Positions 4,746 to 23,688 of a stretch of DNA of 64,000 nucleotides are shown in pieces. This DNA comes from Archangium violaceum (GTDB taxonomy: Bacteria; Myxococcota; Myxococcia; Myxococcales; Myxococcaceae), in NCBI RefSeq assembly GCF_016859125.1, contig NZ_CP069338.1, positions 3,969,501-4,033,500 of the forward strand, given 5' to 3'. Positions within the stretch are counted from its first letter, which is position 1; the number at the start of each line of letters is the position of its first letter. Made by a program: the position numbers and the translations under genes. The notes beneath the pieces are model-generated. The model worked only from the letters and a program-made list of their open reading frames with translations, did no database searches and was not told the DNA's origin.

Positions 4746-5114
4746 TCACCGCCGACGCAGGCGGAAGCGCCGCGTGTGCGTGCCGGGCCCTGCGGCCTCC
4801 TGGGGCACGTGCTGGAAGTAGGGGAAGCGGAACTCCGCCCACAGCACCAGGTACGCCACGCCGAAGAGCGCCGTGGCCACCACCCAGTACCAGGAGATCG
4901 CGAAGGCGATGCTCACCAGCGCCGCCACCAGGCACGCCACTCCAATTCCCAGCGACACCTCCCGTCTCCGGGGGCTCTCCGACATGGCGAAGCCCATGGA
5001 GATGAGCGATATCGCCAGCAGCGGCCACGCCAGCCCGAATGCTTCCCGGGCATACAGGAGGGCAATCGACAGCAGGAACAATCCCAATCCGAACAGTCCC
5101 AACCCACCGTCCAT
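4746..5114 (-). CDS. Four-helix membrane protein, unknown function
   Basis: Predicted 122-residue integral membrane protein with about four hydrophobic segments (LGLFGLGLFLLSIALLYA; WPLLAISLISMGFA; VSLGIGVACLVAALVSIAFA; WYWVVATALFGVAYLVLW) and a basic C-terminal tail ending RRFRLRRR, which should stay in the cytoplasm. The ATG at 5114 has GGAGGAGGAGG upstream at good spacing. No family recognised; it stands alone. Confidence 0.65.
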   Translation of the reverse strand: MDGGLGLFGLGLFLLSIALLYAREAFGLAWPLLAISLISMGFAMSESPRRREVSLGIGVACLVAALVSIAFAISWYWVVATALFGVAYLVLWAEFRFPYFQHVPQEAAGPGTHTRRFRLRRR

Positions 5115-5306
5115 GAGGTGCCTCCTCCTCCGAGTTTCCAAGTGGCAAGGGTTCAGCGCCTAACATCCGCATCCGTCCACCTCGAGGGGAACGCTCGGCA
5201 TGTCGGGCGCCTGGCACGTCTGGTAGCCCTCCACTATGGTGGGGAGTGAACCTTTCATCCTCCCAGGAACTCACGGGCCTTGCCCCGGGTGCCTACCCTC
5301 GCGGCG

Positions 5307-5825
5307 ATGAGGATGGGAGTCATTCGTCACGTCCTGCCGCTGCTCCTGCTGCTCACGTCCGCCGTGGGCTGCCACCGGGGTGTGCGCTTCGAGGACCAGG
5401 TGCTCAGCAAGCCCGGGGTGCGCTACCACGTGGGCGCGCTGCCGCCCGTCTGGGAGCGGGTGAAGCTCTCCAACAACGATCTCGCCTGGTACACCGAGGA
5501 CACCGGCCATGCGCTGTCGGTGAACGCCAACTGCCAGGAGCACGAGGACGCTCCGTTGGATGTGCTCACCCGTCATCTCCTCATGGGCTTCACCGAGCGG
5601 TTGGAGGTGGAGCAGCGGAAGGTGGTGGTGGACGAGCGAGAGGCGTTGCGCTCACGCTACCGGGCCAAGTTGGATGGCGTACCCGTGGAACTGCTCTTCC
5701 TGGTGCTGAAGAAGGACCATTGCGTGTACGACTTCACCTACGTGGCGCCCCTGGGACGTTACGAAGATCGGGTCGAGGACTTCGAGGCGCTCGTGCGCGG
5801 CTTCCGCGCGGAGAGCGCGTCATGA
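5307..5825 (+). CDS. Lipoprotein at the head of the Mla operon
   Basis: Predicted 172-residue lipoprotein: hydrophobic signal HVLPLLLLLTSAVGC with the lipobox cysteine. The mature part shows no motif I recognise. Its stop overlaps the mlaE start (ATGA at 5822-5825), so it is translationally coupled to the lipid transport genes and may be an accessory periplasmic or outer-membrane component, by position only. In-frame starts at 5307 and 5313 are both possible; a TTG at 5280 is less likely. Confidence 0.75.
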   Translation: MRMGVIRHVLPLLLLLTSAVGCHRGVRFEDQVLSKPGVRYHVGALPPVWERVKLSNNDLAWYTEDTGHALSVNANCQEHEDAPLDVLTRHLLMGFTERLEVEQRKVVVDEREALRSRYRAKLDGVPVELLFLVLKKDHCVYDFTYVAPLGRYEDRVEDFEALVRGFRAESAS

Positions 5826-6673
5826 GGACGGGCCTCGAGTTGCACCACCCGCCCCAGCGTCACGGCCGGCCGGTGGAGACGTCCACGGCGGGCGCCATCA
5901 ACCCCGAGGGCGGCACCCTGCGCGAGCGCCTGACGGTGCGCATGGAGCGGCTGGGCTCGCTCGTGGTGATGACGGGCAAGGTGGCGATGCGCGCGGTGAG
6001 CCCGCCCTTCTCGCCCTCCGCGCTCGTCTACCAGGTGGAGGCGCTGGGCGTGCGCTCGCTGCCCATCGCCCTGCTGACGGCCACCTTCGCCGGCCTGGTC
6101 ATCTCGCTGCAGTTCGGCTTCTTCCTGGGGCGCTTCGGCGTGCAGTACACCGTGGGCCGGGTGGTGGTGCTCACGCTCTTCCGCGAGCTGTCCCCGGTGC
6201 TCATCGCCCTCACCGTGGGGGCGCGCGTGGGCTCGGGCATCGCCGCCGAGCTGGGCTCCATGACGGTCACCGAGCAGGTGGACGCCATCCGCGCGCTCGG
6301 GGCGGATCCGCTGCGCAAGCTGGTGGTGCCCCGTGTGCTCGCCTGCCTCATCCTCATGCCCGCGCTCACCGTGCTGGCGGACGTCATCGGCATGGTGGCG
6401 GGCGCGCTCGTGGTGAATGCGCAGTACGGCATCACCTTCCAGTTGTTCTTCCAGGGGGCGCTGGACACCGTGTTCATGGGCGACTTCGTCTCGGGGGTCG
6501 TCAAGGGCTTCGTCTTCGGTGGCATCGTCGGCCTGGTGGGCTGCTTCAAGGGCCTCACCGTCGAGGGGGGCACCGAGGGCGTGGGCCGCGCCACCACCCA
6601 GACGGTGGCCATCACCTCCGTCTCGGTGTGTCTGGCCGACTTCTTCATCACGAAAATCACCCTCTACCTCTGA
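5822..6673 (+). CDS. mlaE: MlaE-type ABC permease for lipid transport
   Basis: Inner-membrane permease of the MCE/Mla system, which moves phospholipid or other lipids between inner and outer membranes. The protein is 283 residues, near the family norm plus an N-terminal extension of about 25. Hallmarks are the SLPIALLTATFAGLVISLQ segment, FRELSPVLIALTVGARVGSGIAAELG, and the cytoplasmic EQVDAIRALGADP coupling loop that docks on the ATPase. It overlaps the lipoprotein by four bases and ends one base before mlaF, so the genes form one operon. Confidence 0.92.
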   Translation: MRTGLELHHPPQRHGRPVETSTAGAINPEGGTLRERLTVRMERLGSLVVMTGKVAMRAVSPPFSPSALVYQVEALGVRSLPIALLTATFAGLVISLQFGFFLGRFGVQYTVGRVVVLTLFRELSPVLIALTVGARVGSGIAAELGSMTVTEQVDAIRALGADPLRKLVVPRVLACLILMPALTVLADVIGMVAGALVVNAQYGITFQLFFQGALDTVFMGDFVSGVVKGFVFGGIVGLVGCFKGLTVEGGTEGVGRATTQTVAITSVSVCLADFFITKITLYL

Positions 6674-6674
6674 G

Positions 6675-7496
6675 ATGCTCTTCCACCGACGCAAGCCCCG
6701 CCTGAAGTTCCAGCCGCCCCGGAAGGGCGAGGAGCTCATCCGCTTCGAGCACCTGCAGAAGTCCTTCGGACCCAAGCGCGTCTACGATGACCTGATGCTC
6801 TCCGTGTACGCGGGCGAGACGCTCACCGTGATTGGCGGCTCGGGCACCGGCAAGAGCGTGCTGCTCAAGTGTCTGATCGGCTTGCTGCGCCCGGACGCGG
6901 GACGCATCCTCTTCGAGGGGCAGGAGCTCAATGACTTCCGGGAAGAGGACTTCATCGACGTGCGCCGGCACGTGGCCATGGTCTTCCAGGGGGCGGCGTT
7001 GTTCGACTCGCTCACGGTGGGGGAGAACATCGCCTACCCGCTGCGCGAGCACTTCCCGCACATGTCTCCCGACGAGCTGCGGGCGCGGGTCGCCCAGAAG
7101 CTCGAGCTGGTGAACCTGCCCGGCATCGAGGACATGAAGCCGGCGGACCTGTCCGGCGGCATGAAGAAGCGCGTGGGTCTGGCGAGGGCCATCGCCACGG
7201 ATCCGGAGGTCATCCTCTGGGACGAGCCCACCACGGGGTTGGATCCCGTCACGACCGAGACCATCAACCAGATGATTCGTTCCATGCAGAGACAACTCGG
7301 GTGCACGTCCATCGTGGTGACCCATGACATGATGAGTGCCTTCAGCGTGTCCGACCGGATCGCGATGCTGGCCAACCGGCGCATCGTCCAGGTGGGCACG
7401 CCGGAGGAGATGCGGGTCTCCACGGTGCCGGAGGTGCGGGCCTTCCTGGATGCGCGGCGCGGGGAATTCGAGTCGCAGGTGGGGGTGGCGCCATGA
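6675..7496 (+). CDS. mlaF: MlaF-type ABC transporter ATPase
   Basis: ATPase of the Mla/MCE lipid transporter, 273 residues. Walker A GGSGTGKS is at residues 54-61; the Q-loop (VFQGAALFDSLTV), signature LSGGMKKR, Walker B VILWDEPTTGLDP and switch histidine (VVTHD) are all intact, so it should hydrolyse ATP. The first 20 residues are a basic extension. It begins one base after the mlaE stop and its last codons overlap the mlaD start (ATGA). It should act at the cytoplasmic face with MlaE. Confidence 0.92.
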   Translation: MLFHRRKPRLKFQPPRKGEELIRFEHLQKSFGPKRVYDDLMLSVYAGETLTVIGGSGTGKSVLLKCLIGLLRPDAGRILFEGQELNDFREEDFIDVRRHVAMVFQGAALFDSLTVGENIAYPLREHFPHMSPDELRARVAQKLELVNLPGIEDMKPADLSGGMKKRVGLARAIATDPEVILWDEPTTGLDPVTTETINQMIRSMQRQLGCTSIVVTHDMMSAFSVSDRIAMLANRRIVQVGTPEEMRVSTVPEVRAFLDARRGEFESQVGVAP

Positions 7497-9322: not shown

Positions 9323-10093
9323 ATGGACCTGGAACTGAAGGGCAGATCGGCTCTCGTCACTGGCGGCAGCCGGGGCATTGGCCGGGCCATCGTCACGGCG
9401 CTGGCTCGCGAGGGCGTGCGGGTGTGTCTGAGCGCGCGTGGGGCCGAGGGGCTGGAGGCGGTGGCGGCGGAGCTCCGCGCGTCCGGCGCCGAGGTGGCGA
9501 CCGTGACGGGCGACGTGGCGACCCCCGAGGGCGCGGCGGCGGCGGTGGACACGGCGGTGCGGGCCTTCGGCGCGTTGGACATCCTCGTCAACAACGTGGG
9601 CGGCAGCGGCGGCGCGGGCTCCTTCGAGGTGGCCACGGCGGCGCAGTGGAAGGACGTGGTCGACCGCAACCTCATGGCCTCCGTGTGGTGCAGCCAGCAC
9701 GCGGTGGAGCACATGAAGGCCCGGGGCGGCGGCTGTATCGTGCACATCAACTCCATCTACGGTCGCGAGTACGGCACCAGCGCGCCCTACACGGCGGCCA
9801 AGGCGGGCCTCACCGCGCTCACCAAGGAGATGGCGCTGGACCTGGCGCGCCACCGCATCCGCGTCAACGGGGTGGCCCCGGGCTCCATCCTCTTCCCCGG
9901 AGGCAGTTGGGACCGGCGGCGGCAGGCGCAGCCGGAGAAGGTGGAGAAGATGGTGCGCGAGGAGCTGCCCTGGGGCCGTTTCGGCACTCCCGAGGAGGTG
10001 GCCGACGTGGTCGTCTTCCTGTGTTCGGAGCGGGCCCGCTGGGTGACGGGGGCCACCGTGCCGGTGGATGGTGGACAGGGCCGTGCCTTCTGA
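9323..10093 (+). CDS. Short-chain dehydrogenase/reductase
   Basis: Classical SDR, 256 residues. The cofactor motif TGGSRGIG is at about residues 13-20, NNVGGSG is the variant NNAG motif, the catalytic serine is in HINSIYG, and YTAAK carries the catalytic Tyr and Lys. The C-terminal VTGATVPVDGG is typical of FabG-like and sugar or keto-acid reductases. The lack of a basic residue pattern specific for one cofactor leaves NAD or NADP open. Substrate unknown; the WGR-like gene follows 37 bases later and may share its transcript. Confidence 0.85.
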   Translation: MDLELKGRSALVTGGSRGIGRAIVTALAREGVRVCLSARGAEGLEAVAAELRASGAEVATVTGDVATPEGAAAAVDTAVRAFGALDILVNNVGGSGGAGSFEVATAAQWKDVVDRNLMASVWCSQHAVEHMKARGGGCIVHINSIYGREYGTSAPYTAAKAGLTALTKEMALDLARHRIRVNGVAPGSILFPGGSWDRRRQAQPEKVEKMVREELPWGRFGTPEEVADVVVFLCSERARWVTGATVPVDGGQGRAF

Positions 10094-19555: not shown

Positions 19556-22279
19556 TCAGGGTGACGCCATCTTCTTCCCCGCCTTGCCACGAGCGCGGAG
19601 GAACTCCCGCACGCCCGGCTGGTGGCGGCGATCCGCTTCGATGCACAGCCGGATGGACTCGAGGGCGCGGGAGAGGGAGCGCGGTCCTCCCTCGATGTTC
19701 GCCACGCGGGGCGTCAGCAGGGCCTCGGCCTCGGCGCGCCGATTCTCGTCGCACAGCTCTCCCACCATCTCGATGAGCCCGTTGAGCTCGTCGGAGCGCA
19801 GCTTGCCGGCGAGCTGGTCGAAGTGCTGCTTGTAGAAGTCCCACGCCAGGGCACGCGACTCGGGGGTGGAGAAGGCGGTGCGGAGGATGGCGCTCGTGTC
19901 GCGCACGTCGAACGCGTCTCCGGTCACCAGCGCGAGCGCCTCCTTCACGAGGGCCGGGTCGCGGAAGGCACCCAGCGTGGCGAGCAACCTGGAGCGCTCG
20001 TTGCGGTCCTTCGTCGCGCGGGCCTGGGCGAGCATCGTGTCGAAGAGGGCGCGGTCTCCGTTGCCCGCCGCCACACGCAGGGCCATCCAGACGGTCTCCG
20101 GGTTCACGGACTTGCGGTCCGCGAGCCACGCCCGGGCGAGCCGGTCCGCCTCCCGGCTCAGCGCCGCTTCCCCCTTCGAGGCGACGTAACCGACGAGCAG
20201 GTTGCGTACCTGCTTCACGTCATCGCTCTCGCCCGGCCTGGGGGTCCAGCCCAGGGCCCGCGCGCGGGGGCCGTAGAGCTCACGGAGCCACGCCAGGTAG
20301 CGCTGACGGTCTTCCTCGGGGAGCAACTCCCGGTGGATGCCGGTGACGAATCGGATGCCGCTCTGGACAACGAGGCGGTGGGGGTCCGCGGCGGTGGCGG
20401 GGACGAGCTTCAGGGCCTCGCCGAGCGGCAGATCCCCCCGGTCCACGGCGGCCTTCACGTCGGCCAGGAAGGCCAGCTGCTCCGCGGTCGTCAGCGTCCC
20501 CCGGGGAGCGGAGATCAGCCCGGCGAGCTGCTCGCGCGAGTAGCCCACGCGGTAGTAGCCCGTGCCGTCCGCGTTGAGGAGGAACCACGAGGGGCAGCCC
20601 GGGAGGGGCAGCTCCAGCTCACCCGTGGTTCCGGTGAGCAGCGTGCAGGCGCGCGTGACGTCCTTGCCCCTGCCGGCGCGTACGCATACGGGGATGCTCC
20701 ACGTCCGCGCGGTGGAGCCACCGGAGCCCGCGGGGAGGTAGCGCTCCTGGGAGAGCTTCAGCCGCGGAGCCTTGCCCGCCTCGCACTGCGCGCTGGCGGA
20801 GACGCGGGGCACACCCGGCTGGTCGATGTAGCCGCGGAAGACGCGGGCCGCGTCGGGCCCGAGCGAAGCGCTCATCGTGGCGAGGAAGTCCTCCGAGGTG
20901 GCCACGCCCCAGGCGTGCTCGCGCACCCACGTGCGCAGCATGCCGCGGACGCCCTCCCGGCCGAGCCAGCCCTCGAGCATGGTGAGCAGCGCGGCGCCCT
21001 TGGCGTAGGTGGTGCCATTGTCGAAGGAGCCGATGATGTCGTCGTTGGTGGTGATGGGCTTGCGCACGGGCGGCGAGGTGGTGAGCGAGTCCGTCTCGAA
21101 CGCGAACGCGGCGGAGTTGGAGCGGCCCTCCAGCTCGAAGAGCCAGCCCGGCTCGAGCCGGTCGGTGATCTTCTGGTCCAGCCACGAGGTGAGGGACTCG
21201 TTGAGCCAGATGTCGTCCCACCACTGGCAGGTGACGACGTCGCCGAACCAGTAGTGGCCCAGTTCGTGGATGGCGATGTTCGCGTAGGACTTGCGGCGCT
21301 GCGGCGTCTCCTCGCCCGGGGGGATGAGGGTGAGGGGCTGGCCGAGCGCGACGATGCCGGGGTGCTCCATGGTGCCCCAGAAGCGGGGGACCACCGCCAC
21401 GTCGAGCTTCTCGTAGGGGTAGGTCTGGTCGAAGAAGTCCTCGAGCAGCGTGATGATGCGCGGGGTGACACGGGCCGCGTAGGCCGTCTCGGCGCCCCGG
21501 CCGCGAGGGACGATGAAGCGCAGCGGGACATGGGCGCGCCCGATGGGGCCGCCGTCCACGAGGTCGAAGGGGCCCACCACGAAGGCCACGAGGTAGCTCG
21601 GCATCGGGCGGCTCTCGGCGAAGGTGACGCGCTTGAGGCCCCCGGGCAGCGGCTCCTCGGAGACGACGGCGTGGTTGGCGAGCGCCACGTGCTCCTGCTT
21701 CACCGTGAAACGCAGGCGCCAGGGCACCTTGAAGCCCGGCTCGTCGAAGCAGGGGAAGGCGCGCCGCGCGTCGATGGGCTCGAAGAAGGTGTAGAGATAG
21801 GACTCGCCGCCCTCCTCCACGGCGTAGAGGCCCTGGCTGCGCTCGCGGTCCGCGCGTCCGATGAAGGCGAGGGTGAGCTGGGCCTGTCCGGCGCCGAGCG
21901 TCTCCGGGAGCAGCAGCCCGAGGCGGCCCTCCGTGGCGGTGACGGCCCGGGCCTCCAATGTGCGGCCTCCGGTGAGGACGCTTGCGTGGGTTATCTGGAG
22001 GTCCTGCGCGTGCAGCCACACCTGGTGCACGGGCTCACGCACGTCCACGTCGATGGTGACGATGCCGGCGTAGGTGGGCTCGGCGGGGAGGAGCGTCAGG
22101 TCCAGCGCGTAGCGCACCGGCCGCACGGAGTCGGGCAGGCGCAGTTGTGGGGGCTGGGGCTCGGGCCACGCGGGAGCGGTGGCCTCGGACGAGGGCGCCC
22201 CGGAGGCCGGTGGGGCCTCGGGCGCATGGGTACAGCGGAAGGAAACGAGTGCGACGAGAACGACGAGTAGCCAGCGCAT
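19556..22279 (-). CDS. M1-family aminopeptidase, exported
   Basis: Zinc aminopeptidase of the M1 (gluzincin) family, 907 residues. The zinc site is intact: HELGH at residues 338-342 and the third ligand E361 in WLNES, the expected HExxH-x18-E spacing. The exopeptidase motif, usually GxMEN, reads GTMEHPG (302-308), so the Asn is His. The N-terminal beta domain, catalytic domain, and C-terminal helical ERAP1-like domain are all present. An N-terminal hydrophobic segment ending in SFRC suggests export and possibly lipidation, although Arg before Cys is not a good lipobox. The start lies about 20 bases from the permuted tRNA array. Confidence 0.88.
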   Translation of the reverse strand: MRWLLVVLVALVSFRCTHAPEAPPASGAPSSEATAPAWPEPQPPQLRLPDSVRPVRYALDLTLLPAEPTYAGIVTIDVDVREPVHQVWLHAQDLQITHASVLTGGRTLEARAVTATEGRLGLLLPETLGAGQAQLTLAFIGRADRERSQGLYAVEEGGESYLYTFFEPIDARRAFPCFDEPGFKVPWRLRFTVKQEHVALANHAVVSEEPLPGGLKRVTFAESRPMPSYLVAFVVGPFDLVDGGPIGRAHVPLRFIVPRGRGAETAYAARVTPRIITLLEDFFDQTYPYEKLDVAVVPRFWGTMEHPGIVALGQPLTLIPPGEETPQRRKSYANIAIHELGHYWFGDVVTCQWWDDIWLNESLTSWLDQKITDRLEPGWLFELEGRSNSAAFAFETDSLTTSPPVRKPITTNDDIIGSFDNGTTYAKGAALLTMLEGWLGREGVRGMLRTWVREHAWGVATSEDFLATMSASLGPDAARVFRGYIDQPGVPRVSASAQCEAGKAPRLKLSQERYLPAGSGGSTARTWSIPVCVRAGRGKDVTRACTLLTGTTGELELPLPGCPSWFLLNADGTGYYRVGYSREQLAGLISAPRGTLTTAEQLAFLADVKAAVDRGDLPLGEALKLVPATAADPHRLVVQSGIRFVTGIHRELLPEEDRQRYLAWLRELYGPRARALGWTPRPGESDDVKQVRNLLVGYVASKGEAALSREADRLARAWLADRKSVNPETVWMALRVAAGNGDRALFDTMLAQARATKDRNERSRLLATLGAFRDPALVKEALALVTGDAFDVRDTSAILRTAFSTPESRALAWDFYKQHFDQLAGKLRSDELNGLIEMVGELCDENRRAEAEALLTPRVANIEGGPRSLSRALESIRLCIEADRRHQPGVREFLRARGKAGKKMASP

Positions 22280-22298: not shown

Positions 22299-22325
22299 TT
22301 TGCGCCCGAGTGAAGAAGCCGTTTT
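22299..22325 (-). ncRNA. Permuted-tRNA flank, downstream half (unit 2)
   Basis: After the 5' exon comes AAAACGGCTTCTTCACT (17 nt), then CGGGCGCAA, which pairs with the strand at 22434-22443 upstream of the 3' exon (7 bp with one G-U, a mismatch, then 2 bp). The same 17-nt element, with identical spacing, follows unit 1. Proposed to be half of a processing element. Confidence 0.65.
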
Positions 22326-22407
22326 TGGAGTCTCCTGCTCTACCCCTGAGCTACCTCCCCATGAAGCGAGTGGGGAGGACCGGACTCGAACCGGCGGCCT
22401 GAAGATT
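22326..22407 (-). tRNA. Circularly permuted tRNA gene 2: Trp(CCA) or Arg(CCU)
   Basis: The minus strand gives first the 3' half (22407-22371): anticodon 3' strand TCTTC, variable AGGCC, T arm GCCGG-TTCGAGT-CCGGT, acceptor CCTCCCC, base 73 A. A 10-base linker (CTCGCTTCAT) follows, then the 5' half (22360-22326): acceptor GGGGAGG, TA, D arm GCTC-AGGGGTA-GAGC, A26, anticodon 5' strand GGAGA and loop CTCCA. Rejoined, the acceptor pairs 7/7 and the anticodon stem GGAGA/TCTTC pairs with one wobble; the T stem is complete. The joint falls in the anticodon loop: depending on it by one base, the loop is CTCCAAA (Trp) or CTCCTAA (Arg). No CCA is encoded. Confidence 0.8.
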
Positions 22408-22443
22408 AAGTGGGCTTGTGTGGCCTCTTCGGCCGGACGCGAA
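22408..22443 (-). ncRNA. Permuted-tRNA flank, upstream half (unit 2)
   Basis: Strand TTCGCGTCCG, which pairs with the downstream half, is followed by a 26-nt stretch containing CCGAAGAGGCC and ending CACTT right at the 3' exon. Unit 1 has the same 26-nt layout without gaps, 21 of 26 positions identical. Here GGCC-GAAGA-GGCC can also form a small local hairpin. Confidence 0.65.
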
Positions 22444-22460
22444 TGCTGTCAGAGAAAAAT

Positions 22461-22487
22461 GAAACGCCCGAGTGGGGAAGCCGTCGA
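22461..22487 (-). ncRNA. Permuted-tRNA flank, downstream half (unit 1)
   Basis: After the 5' exon comes TCGACGGCTTCCCCACT (17 nt, same length and pattern as unit 2), then CGGGCGTTTC, which pairs over 10-11 bp with 22594-22604. The run ATTTTTCTCT that follows could end transcription or separate the two units. Confidence 0.65.
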
Positions 22488-22567
22488 ACTGCTCGATCCC
22501 AAATCGAGTGCCTTACCATTCGGCCACCCAGCGCATGGAGAGCGCCGGGGTTGGATTCGAACCAACA
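22488..22567 (-). tRNA. Circularly permuted tRNA gene 1: Pro(UGG)
   Basis: The minus strand gives the 3' half first (22567-22542): one variable-loop base, T arm GTTGG-TTCGAAT-CCAAC, acceptor CCCGGCG, base 73 C. After the linker TCTCCATG comes the 5' half (22533-22488): acceptor CGCTGGG, TG, D arm GCCG-AATGGTA-AGGC, A26, anticodon arm CTCGA-TTTGGGA-TCGAG, then CAGT. Rejoined, the acceptor pairs 7/7 (one wobble), the anticodon stem 5/5, the T stem 5/5, and the variable loop is the canonical 5 bases (CAGT+T). Anticodon TGG with G37 and the C1-G72 pair fit proline; C73 instead of the usual A73 is odd. No CCA is encoded. Confidence 0.82.
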
Positions 22568-22604
22568 AAGTGAGCGTGTAGGGCCTCTTCGGACGGGCGC
22601 TTCA
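22568..22604 (-). ncRNA. Permuted-tRNA flank, upstream half (unit 1)
   Basis: Strand TGAAGCGCCCG pairs with the downstream half and so encloses the whole permuted pre-tRNA. It is followed by 26 nt with CCGAAGAGGCC and a terminal CACTT abutting the 3' exon, matching unit 2 gap-free. The enclosing helix differs in sequence between the units but keeps pairing, as expected of a conserved RNA fold. Confidence 0.65.
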
Positions 22605-22656: not shown

Positions 22657-23688
22657 CTATTTTCCGGGGGATTTCTCCGGCGCGGGCGCCTTGGGCTGCT
22701 TGGGCTGGCGGAACATGGCGCACGGGTCCTCCCGCTCCTCGGCGGGGGTGAACCAGACATAGTCATACGGGAGCTGCCCGGGACTATCGGGGGGCGCGTA
22801 ATCGCGTGGCTCACGGGCCTCGGGGGAGACCTCGATGAAGGCCAGGCTGCGCACCGGGAGCTCGGGGGCACGTCGGACGAGCTGCGCGGGGACACCGCGG
22901 TCGGTGCGTGCGTGGCCGTTGCCCGTGATGAGCAGGGCGCCGTCTTCCGTGGCGGTGGTCAACAGGCGATCGGCCATCTGCGCGTCGCGCGCCCGCTGGG
23001 CGAGCACCATCGGCTCGAGCATGGACTCGGGCAGATGGCCGCAGTGGGACTCGTGCATCTCCGCGCGCATGGCGCGGGCGACGTCCTCCGGCAGGGGCGT
23101 CTCGAGCCCGAGCCGGGCGCGTGTTTCCGGAGACATGGCCTCGAGGCCCCGGGTGACGAGCTCCTTCACCTGGGCCAGCGGGAGGTTGGCGCCGATGATG
23201 CGCAGGCCGCGCTCGGTGCCCACGGCGAAGATGGGACGGTAGAGAGACCAGTCGGGCCAGCCGCTCTTTTCCCAATCAACGGCCTGGGCGATGGCATCCG
23301 GCTCCCGGGGCGAACGGGCGAGTGCCTCGTCGATGAGGGGTTGCTGCTCCACGTCGAGCATCTCGAAGGCGAGCACGGGCTCGCGGCCAGAGCCGGTGAG
23401 TGCTCGCACCAGCTCGGCCTGCAGGCGGTGGTGATCGGGGTTGTCGTGCTGCTCGCCGAGGAGCACGAAGCGGGCCCGGGAGAGCTCCGCCGCCAGCGCG
23501 GGCTCCTCTACCCAGCGGCCCTGCCGCGCGTCCCAGATTCTTCCCACCAGGGGATGGTCGCGGTGCAGCGTGCCGAGCCACTCTTCCGTCCTGGACCCGG
23601 GCGCGTTGCCACGATTCGCGGAGGAAGAGGCACAGCCACAGGCCAGGAGGAGGGCGAGGCAGAGTCGAGGGAAGGTGGGGGTACTCAT
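22657..23688 (-). CDS. ChaN-like (DUF399) lipoprotein
   Basis: Predicted 343-residue lipoprotein (signal ending LLACGC) of the ChaN/DUF399 family, haem-binding and iron-linked in Campylobacter. Family landmarks seen are FVLLGEQHDNPDHHRLQ, FEMLDVEQQP, W..SGWPDWSLYRPIF, IIGANLP and ITGNGHARTDRGVP. The C-terminal 60 residues are proline-rich and probably flexible. The gene ends about 50 bases before the permuted tRNA array on the same strand, so its transcript may run into it. It diverges from the GNAT gene, with an inverted repeat in the promoter region. Confidence 0.82.
   Translation of the reverse strand: MSTPTFPRLCLALLLACGCASSSANRGNAPGSRTEEWLGTLHRDHPLVGRIWDARQGRWVEEPALAAELSRARFVLLGEQHDNPDHHRLQAELVRALTGSGREPVLAFEMLDVEQQPLIDEALARSPREPDAIAQAVDWEKSGWPDWSLYRPIFAVGTERGLRIIGANLPLAQVKELVTRGLEAMSPETRARLGLETPLPEDVARAMRAEMHESHCGHLPESMLEPMVLAQRARDAQMADRLLTTATEDGALLITGNGHARTDRGVPAQLVRRAPELPVRSLAFIEVSPEAREPRDYAPPDSPGQLPYDYVWFTPAEEREDPCAMFRQPKQPKAPAPEKSPGK

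Follow-up and report, generated by a model that had tools for sequence, protein, structure and literature searches.

Tandem permuted tRNA-like RNA elements in Archangium violaceum as probable Y RNA-type partners of a divergent Ro60-like protein

We analysed a stretch of 64,000 nucleotides of the Archangium violaceum genome, referred to herein as the window, and found that it carries two tandem RNA elements in which the parts of a tRNA follow one another in permuted order. We consider it highly probable that both are Y RNA-type small noncoding RNAs, each with a basal stem bound by a divergent Ro60-like protein and, distally, a permuted tRNA mimic. Covariation shows the structure, and the RNAs are associated in genomes with the gene for this protein; we infer that the RNAs are transcribed and bind the protein, and likewise what partner and function the tRNA-like part may have.

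The first element lies on the minus strand at 22461-22601 and scores 105.4 bits with our model R1, whose training set includes it. An earlier note, made from the sequence, had described a permuted tRNA-Pro(UGG)-like gene at 22461-22604; the element itself was confirmed, with an analysed extent of 22461-22601. Read 5' to 3', it can form a tRNA(Pro)-like cloverleaf in the order T arm, acceptor, D arm, anticodon arm. The T arm (GTTGG-TTCGAAT-CCAAC, 22550-22566) is followed by an acceptor hairpin made of the 3' strand, a 7-nt loop and the 5' strand (22527-22549), a D arm (22510-22524) and an anticodon arm with the loop TTTGGGA and the triplet TGG (22492-22508). As the note had it, the acceptor strands CGCTGGG/CCCGGCG pair at 7/7 positions with one wobble, the predicted fold having 8 pairs, and the T and anticodon stems each pair 5/5; the D arm it described is present, its stem being GCC/GGC (3/3) and not the four-letter pairing GCCG/AGGC. 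Two outer helices enclose these arms: P1, with its 5' strand at 22594-22600 and its 3' strand at 22464-22470, and P2, in which GAGGCC (22582-22587) pairs with GGCTTC (22477-22482). The minimum free energy fold of the RNA as transcribed places the T arm, acceptor, D arm and anticodon stem inside P1 and P2, and the anticodon stem gains two more pairs that reach into its loop. The energy of this fold is weak evidence alone (z = -1.61; 11 of 200 shuffles were as stable or better). When the halves were rejoined in tRNA order, ARAGORN called tRNA-Pro(tgg), which is a consistency check and not proof since the joint and the CCA were supplied by hand. ARAGORN made no call on unrotated elements, and neither window element was called by ARAGORN or by Rfam at gathering scores. 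A simple scan found no sigma-70 promoter and no terminator.

Beside this element we found a second, absent from the earlier note, at 22299-22441 on the same strand (R1 119.6 bits, likewise in the training set). It is tRNA(Trp CCA)-like and is broken within the anticodon loop. Its P1 pairs 22434-22440 with 22302-22308, and its P2 pairs 22422-22427 with 22315-22320; between them lie the T arm (22379-22395), the acceptor hairpin CCTCCCC-loop-GGGGAGG (22354-22378) and the D arm (22337-22351). The predicted fold contains P1, a longer P2, the T arm, the acceptor and the D arm (z = -2.98; 1 of 200 shuffles). The split anticodon stem, formed by the 3' strand TCTTC (22401-22405) and the 5' strand GGAGA (22331-22335), is absent from this single-sequence fold and rests on comparison, in which it appears as helix 3 with 87.8% of alignment cells paired. 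The Rfam YrlA model RF02553 covered the Trp-like element over the whole model with 33.4 bits (E = 1.4e-5; gathering score 69). The two window elements also share their flanks, GCGyCCGkCCGAAGAGGCC on the 5' side and CGGCTTCyyCACTCGGGCG on the 3' side, which the earlier note had likewise missed. Pairing of AAG in the 5' internal loop with CTT on the 3' side was dropped since conservation was confined to the 3' side, and a Twister-sister ribozyme was rejected at 20.7 bits, below the cut-off of 34.

The tandem pair occupies the gap between an M1-type peptidase frame (19556-22279) and a ChaN-like frame (22657-23688), both labelled from their translations alone. By R1 matches the pair is kept in 5/5 congeners. 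Within the stretches examined, both window neighbours flank it in G001 and G002, the peptidase alone in G004, and the ChaN-like frame alone in G003 and G005, so that the tandem pair is conserved and its surroundings are conserved only in part. The same layout between the same genes, which the earlier note had proposed to look for in relatives, was thus found for the pair in all five congeners, with both neighbours in two of them and one neighbour in the other three.

For a comparison of the structure, members of the family were collected by their flank motifs, giving 78 extracted elements, or 64 after near-identical ones had been removed, and were aligned with MAFFT. In alignment A2, comprising 60 of the 64 (L112, L127, L131 and L145 were left out) and covering P1, P2 and the T arm, 97.1% of cells were paired and 122 cells carried changes on both sides. 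The covariation score was 0.329 versus a shuffled mean of 0.113, reached in 0/500 shuffles, and structures slid along the alignment scored at most 0.095. Two other measures were less extreme, namely pairs with both-side changes (8 versus 6.2; 14/500) and further pair types (23 versus 19.4; 8/500). P1 was paired in 98.6% of cells, with both-side changes at 4/7 pairs, and P2 in 98.9%, varying in register at one pair (GU 54, AU 2, UG 2, unpaired 2; n = 60). Alignment A1 added the acceptor, D and split anticodon stems; its 20 elements were chosen by hand for their complete tRNA-like domain, and its percentages are therefore not family-wide. Here 97.7% of cells were paired, the covariation score was 0.352 versus 0.123 in shuffled alignments, and 0/500 shuffles did as well on any of the five measures, in line with the earlier claim that the agreement with a tRNA is very unlikely by chance. 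Both-side changes occurred in 7/7 acceptor pairs, one of these having letters in only 6/20 rows. Covariation says little on the D stem, which never varies in A1, or on P2, which hardly does; since flank motifs were used to pick the elements, the invariance of P2 and of CACTC is partly by construction. Overall, covariation supports the permuted tRNA-like structure, and the conservation of pairing in relatives that the earlier note had looked for is present as compensatory changes.

These data also bear on whether the elements are remnants of tRNA genes, or chance, in which a degraded tandem array would place the 5' half of one gene behind the T arm and 3' acceptor strand of the gene before it. 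Tandem tRNA arrays do yield permuted-order matches, as the best R1 matches in the phage locus L247 illustrate, and RF00005 matches across both elements at 22371-22533, where the model combines the 5' half of the Pro element with the 3' half of the Trp element at 28.3 bits (gathering score 29). An ordinary intron-containing tRNA across both elements was rejected, its acceptors being unpaired. An assignment of the halves to ordinary tRNAs, which the earlier note had said would count against it, likewise fails, since this sole ordinary-order match over both elements leaves acceptor positions unpaired. The acceptor strands within each element instead pair mutually and covary at 7/7 positions, which refutes the remnant reading. 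Each of the 60 aligned members, a set picked by flank motifs, lies within P1 (98.6% paired) and P2 (98.9%), and the RNA occurs in many genera, confined to protein-bearing genomes save two. We regard the probability of remnants or chance as vanishingly small.

The window genome (12.68 Mb) contains five R1 matches to the RNA family at four places. Four exact copies of the 3' flank motif occur there, belonging to the two window elements, to L061, which is Gln(CUG)-like and broken within the anticodon stem, and to L062, which has a long variable arm and the triplet TCA; L063, the fifth copy, is reduced, has two motif mismatches and lies at 11.59 Mb. With hand-chosen joints and CCA, ARAGORN called the rejoined halves of the four elements tRNA-Pro(tgg), Trp(cca), Gln(ctg) and SeC(tca). 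Over genome contigs of 84,980 species, the both-flank pattern found 42 stretches, all in Myxococcota according to their record titles and mostly in Archangium, Corallococcus, Hyalangium, Myxococcus, Pyxidicoccus, Citreicoccus and Myxococcaceae MAGs; the remainder were one Kofleriaceae, one Polyangiaceae and one Myxococcales MAG. RNA-positive genomes carry 1-6 R1 matches each, those in several searched genomes being there by construction as R1 was trained on elements from them. In the family build, P1, an internal loop and P2 form a basal stem that encloses a permuted tRNA-like domain; this domain is variable, and its break point differs between copies. On inspection by eye, the D arm or the anticodon arm is missing from many members, which retain P1, P2 and the T arm; a subfamily with the ends GCTGCCCG has lost the D arm, and other members are reduced further. 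RF02553 gave 40.6 bits for L061, and no element in the scanned sources reached its gathering score of 69 (33.4, 21.5 and 40.6 bits), which is a detection threshold and not a biological feature. Among the open-access literature matches listed, we noticed none that describes such RNAs in myxobacteria. Parts of two further copies, L177:6178-6346 and L156:5223-5363, score 35.1 and 31.0 bits in ordinary order, above the Rfam tRNA cut-off, and routine annotation might therefore label them tRNAs; in the L177 copy, a very long hairpin replaces the acceptor loop.

Circularly permuted tRNA genes occur in red and green algae and in archaea. Were the window elements such genes, a cut in the basal stem of the transcript would be followed by ligation of the ends, with RtcB as one candidate ligase, and RNase P and RNase Z would open the acceptor loop to give a working tRNA. 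That ARAGORN called all four rejoined window-genome elements tRNAs fits this, as does U33, which is kept in 18 of the 21 intact anticodon arms among the 64 elements examined. An arm was counted as intact if it followed the D arm, paired 5/5 and had a 7-nt loop; three other hairpins that paired 5/5 but preceded the T arm were left aside. The order of the halves, the varied junction and the short loop between the 3' and 5' acceptor strands are also shared with the algal and archaeal genes. Against it, the 21 intact arms carry 20 different triplets, two of which, TCA and TTA, would read stop codons. The equivalent copy of the tandem pair carries TGG in the window genome, CAT in G005 and CTT in G003, so the triplet differs between congeners. 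The window genome also has ordinary tRNA-Trp(CCA), Pro(UGG) and Gln(CUG). Judged from structure, the junction has no bulge-helix-bulge, its flanks being the 7-bp P1, an internal loop and the 6-bp P2, and the tRNA splicing endonuclease family PF01974 had no match at E <= 1 in the window genome, although as a control it matched in 5/14 named genomes. The members without a D or anticodon arm that nonetheless keep P1, P2 and the T arm argue in the same direction. RtcB is represented by 6 matches in the window genome and occurs in 148/195 genomes, which would suit ligation; as it is far commoner than the RNA family, we rejected it as a marker of splicing. Unlike the algal and archaeal genes, the present family thus lacks a bulge-helix-bulge, a splicing endonuclease match and a conserved anticodon, has a shared basal stem, and coexists with ordinary isoacceptors. 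Since the triplets drift, ordinary isoacceptors exist and the endonuclease was not found, the sequence evidence indicates that the window elements are not genes for working tRNAs, and we consider permuted tRNA genes very improbable. Of the earlier proposal of a permuted tRNA-Pro(UGG)-like gene in a bacterium, the permuted tRNA-like fold stands and the tRNA gene does not. A bacterial permuted tRNA-like domain is also found in permuted two-piece tmRNA (RF04321), whose model matched the T arm and acceptor of L061 weakly (27.5 bits; gathering score 47); unlike tmRNA, the present RNAs are far shorter and are enclosed by P1 and P2. Three clusters in the window genome, G000:C1:278680-279253, 1584314-1584595 and 3080378-3080992 (L064, L068 and L069), hold odd, mostly lower-scoring extra tRNAs beside the ordinary set and resemble second tRNA arrays.

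We found that the RNA family co-occurs with a protein family of ~580-590 residues, represented by P0002. Among 195 Myxococcota genomes, the RNA (R1, E <= 1e-4) was present in 78 and the protein in 76: both in 76, the RNA alone in two (G102, a 1260-contig assembly, and G174), the protein alone in none, and neither in 117. The Fisher p of 1.2e-52 is uncorrected for phylogeny and overstates independence, since 75 of the 78 RNA-positive genomes belong to one family. More telling are the seven genomes of genus g15, in which G127-G129 have both and G125, G019, G126 and G033 have neither, and two other families, represented by G035 and G076, that have both RNA and protein. At least 35 genomes carry an RNA on the same strand as the protein gene and no more than 300 bp upstream of it; in at least 15 further genomes the nearest recorded RNA lies 1-14 kb upstream. 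Three loci, from Kofleriaceae (L161), Polyangiaceae (L177) and Myxococcales (L156), have tandem RNA copies immediately ahead of the protein gene, which in L177 is broken off by the end of its contig. The protein of the window genome is encoded elsewhere, at G000:C1:256547-258280, and is 72% identical to P0002; no RNA copy was found in the 15 kb surrounding its gene, and thus none less than 6 kb away (L238).

The identity of this protein was considered from sequence libraries and structure models. Pfam recognized only a C-terminal vWA domain, NCBIfam gave vWA-type matches far below cut-off, and PADLOC had no match; since the family libraries name nothing beyond vWA, the window-genome protein is probably annotated as hypothetical or vWA. 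The Pfam TROVE family PF05731 had no match in the window genome at E <= 10 and none in the associated protein, and a sequence search of the PDB did not find a Ro60 chain. In 59 relatives no TROVE match exceeded the cut-off, and one weak partial match was seen in G041. This side match, in an order-level relative (G041:C42:973-1155, L115), is a 540-residue frame with 21.9 bits to TROVE and a DVSGSM vWA motif, and it showed no BLAST relation to the Ro60-like protein. An AlphaFold model made with nine sequences had a mean pLDDT of 57.8 and was fairly confident only over approximately residues 270-560, with pLDDT below 50 for most of residues 1-265. With this model, Foldseek ranked Ro60 of Thermus phage phiLo first (E = 1.4e-6) and Xenopus Ro60 third and fourth, in a list that is also full of vWA-only matches. 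The Ro60 superpositions covered 559-569 columns at TM-scores of 0.30-0.38 and an rmsd of 14-17 A, low and high values, respectively, that would be expected with the poorly modelled N-terminal half. In a second structure comparison, the rows for Ro60, Rsr (2nvo) and Trove (9kop) aligned 243-278 residues, from 257-285 to ~560; the Ro60 and Rsr alignments, with 265-278 residues from ~257-265 to ~559, reached past the vWA domain into the helical part, whereas vWA-only rows started at ~347-387. Z values were 13.3-14.0 for Ro60 and Rsr, with vWA-only rows tied at 13-14.

On these models we take the protein to be a divergent Ro60, with a HEAT ring that stays putative because of the poor N-terminal model, the loose superpositions and the tied Z values. 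Like Xenopus Ro60, Deinococcus radiodurans Rsr and phage phiLo Ro60, it is predicted to have helical repeats followed by a vWA domain, with a fold match over ~257-559; unlike them, it is missed by Pfam TROVE and, in some lineages, has a ThiF-type E1 as well as small proteins associated with it. These same differences would suit a protein of vWA and helical-repeat build that is no true relative of Ro60 and binds a tRNA mimic of the same construction, forming a new RNP unrelated to Y RNAs. The missing sequence match to TROVE, the unreliable N-terminal model and the loose Ro60 superpositions point that way, as does a gene neighbourhood with a downstream ~320-residue protein in 10/11 loci and a ThiF-type E1 in 5/11, unlike the Salmonella operon as described in PMC7790460. 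The placing of Ro60 at Foldseek ranks 1, 3 and 4 over 559-569 columns, the extension of the Ro60 and Rsr rows into the helical part, and a two-part RNA architecture that is the same as that of YrlA speak against it, and we consider such an unrelated RNP quite unlikely.

Several observations concern the surroundings of the protein gene. Genes downstream of the Ro60-like gene were seen at L161:2365-4503, L156:1124-3386, L241 and L244, among others. The ~320-residue protein of 10/11 loci has no Pfam match. The E1 of 5/11 loci matches PADLOC E1-E2 models (best E = 4e-14). An 83-residue protein, P0005, lies downstream in 4/11 loci and might be ubiquitin-like; its model (mean pLDDT 48) has the order strand-strand-helix-strand-strand. 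On the viral contig L246 (IMGVR_UViG_3300007512_000029), a Ro60-like homologue at 5001-6773, with 35% identity in the best segment, is accompanied by ordinary tRNAs and a convincing permuted tRNA-like RNA at 9538-9676, which has a 7-bp terminal stem (R1 E = 1.4e-6; fold z = -3.56). A homologue in the phage Rctr197k (KX853510.1, Virus Rctr197k; L247:5980-7929), 37.7% identical over 97% of the query and annotated as a misc_feature only, directly follows an array of ~30 tRNA genes. No convincing permuted RNA was found in L247, where the best R1 matches overlap ordinary tandem tRNAs.

The preferred reading of the elements as Y RNA-type partners of a divergent Ro60 draws in part on a comparison with YrlA. 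As described in PMC8394870, YrlA is a Y RNA of 90-150 nt in which a stem formed by the ends binds Rsr, and its tRNA-like domain, which DusA and TruB modify, binds PNPase; structure comparison superposes YrlA on tRNAs by circular permutation (PMC11472068). The earlier statement that no bacterial case is known accordingly needs qualifying by these accounts of YrlA (PMC11472068, PMC8394870). The present RNAs resemble YrlA and Rsr in their end-formed stem, in the permuted T arm, acceptor hairpin and D arm, and in the association with a gene for a Ro60-like protein. They differ in that they fall below the Rfam gathering score and have a conserved basal stem of their own, several members have complete anticodon arms or a long variable arm, the partner has no Pfam TROVE match, and each positive genome has 1-6 RNA matches. 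We did not file them under RF02553 because their YrlA scores are below threshold. G[G/U/C]CCG is present in 56/60 elements and resembles the animal Y RNA sequence GGUCCGA, described as the Ro60-contact motif (PMC11277228); GUCCGA itself occurs in 1/60.

We propose that the present RNAs work like Y RNAs. The 5' and 3' ends would pair as P1, a conserved internal loop with GnCCG and CACTC strands, and P2, and the divergent Ro60-like protein, encoded elsewhere in the genome, would bind this basal stem. The distal part would mimic a tRNA in permuted order, its acceptor stem closed as a hairpin and the chain entering and leaving the mimic either in the variable loop or in the stem or loop of the anticodon arm. 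If YrlA and Rsr are a guide, the tRNA-like part may tether or gate PNPase or tRNA-modifying enzymes on the Ro60 ring, which may serve decay or quality control of structured RNA.

A different role on the same divergent Ro60 ring can be conceived, in which the RNAs would be baits, diversified in their anticodons, for anticodon nucleases of phages or rivals. Several look-alikes per genome with changing anticodon loops would be cut or occupied by such nucleases; the ring, with the E1 and a possible ubiquitin-like module in some lineages, would read or answer the damage, and phages with the protein beside tRNA arrays would be the opposing side of the conflict. The Salmonella operon, comprising rsr, Y RNAs, rtcB and rtcA, responds to damaged tRNAs; PMC7790460 describes YrlA as uncut and suggests that it is possibly an inhibitor of the nuclease. 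A TROVE protein is found in some jumbo phages, and in cells it is said to act in RNA repair with a tRNA-like partner (PMC7824862). That YrlA fragments were unseen in Salmonella when tRNAs were cut, according to PMC7790460, and that some members of the present family have no anticodon arm argue against baits, and we regard this role as unlikely.

If the assignment to Ro60 and Y RNAs is correct, a branch of these RNPs has been missed by the family libraries searched here, with neither a TROVE nor a YrlA call, and what looked like a bacterial permuted tRNA gene would be explained. Y RNAs could then mimic an entire tRNA, anticodon arm included, and the point at which the tRNA is opened would move between copies. 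Questions about the origin of Y RNAs from tRNAs and about what they gate would become testable in the culturable genera Archangium, Corallococcus and Myxococcus.
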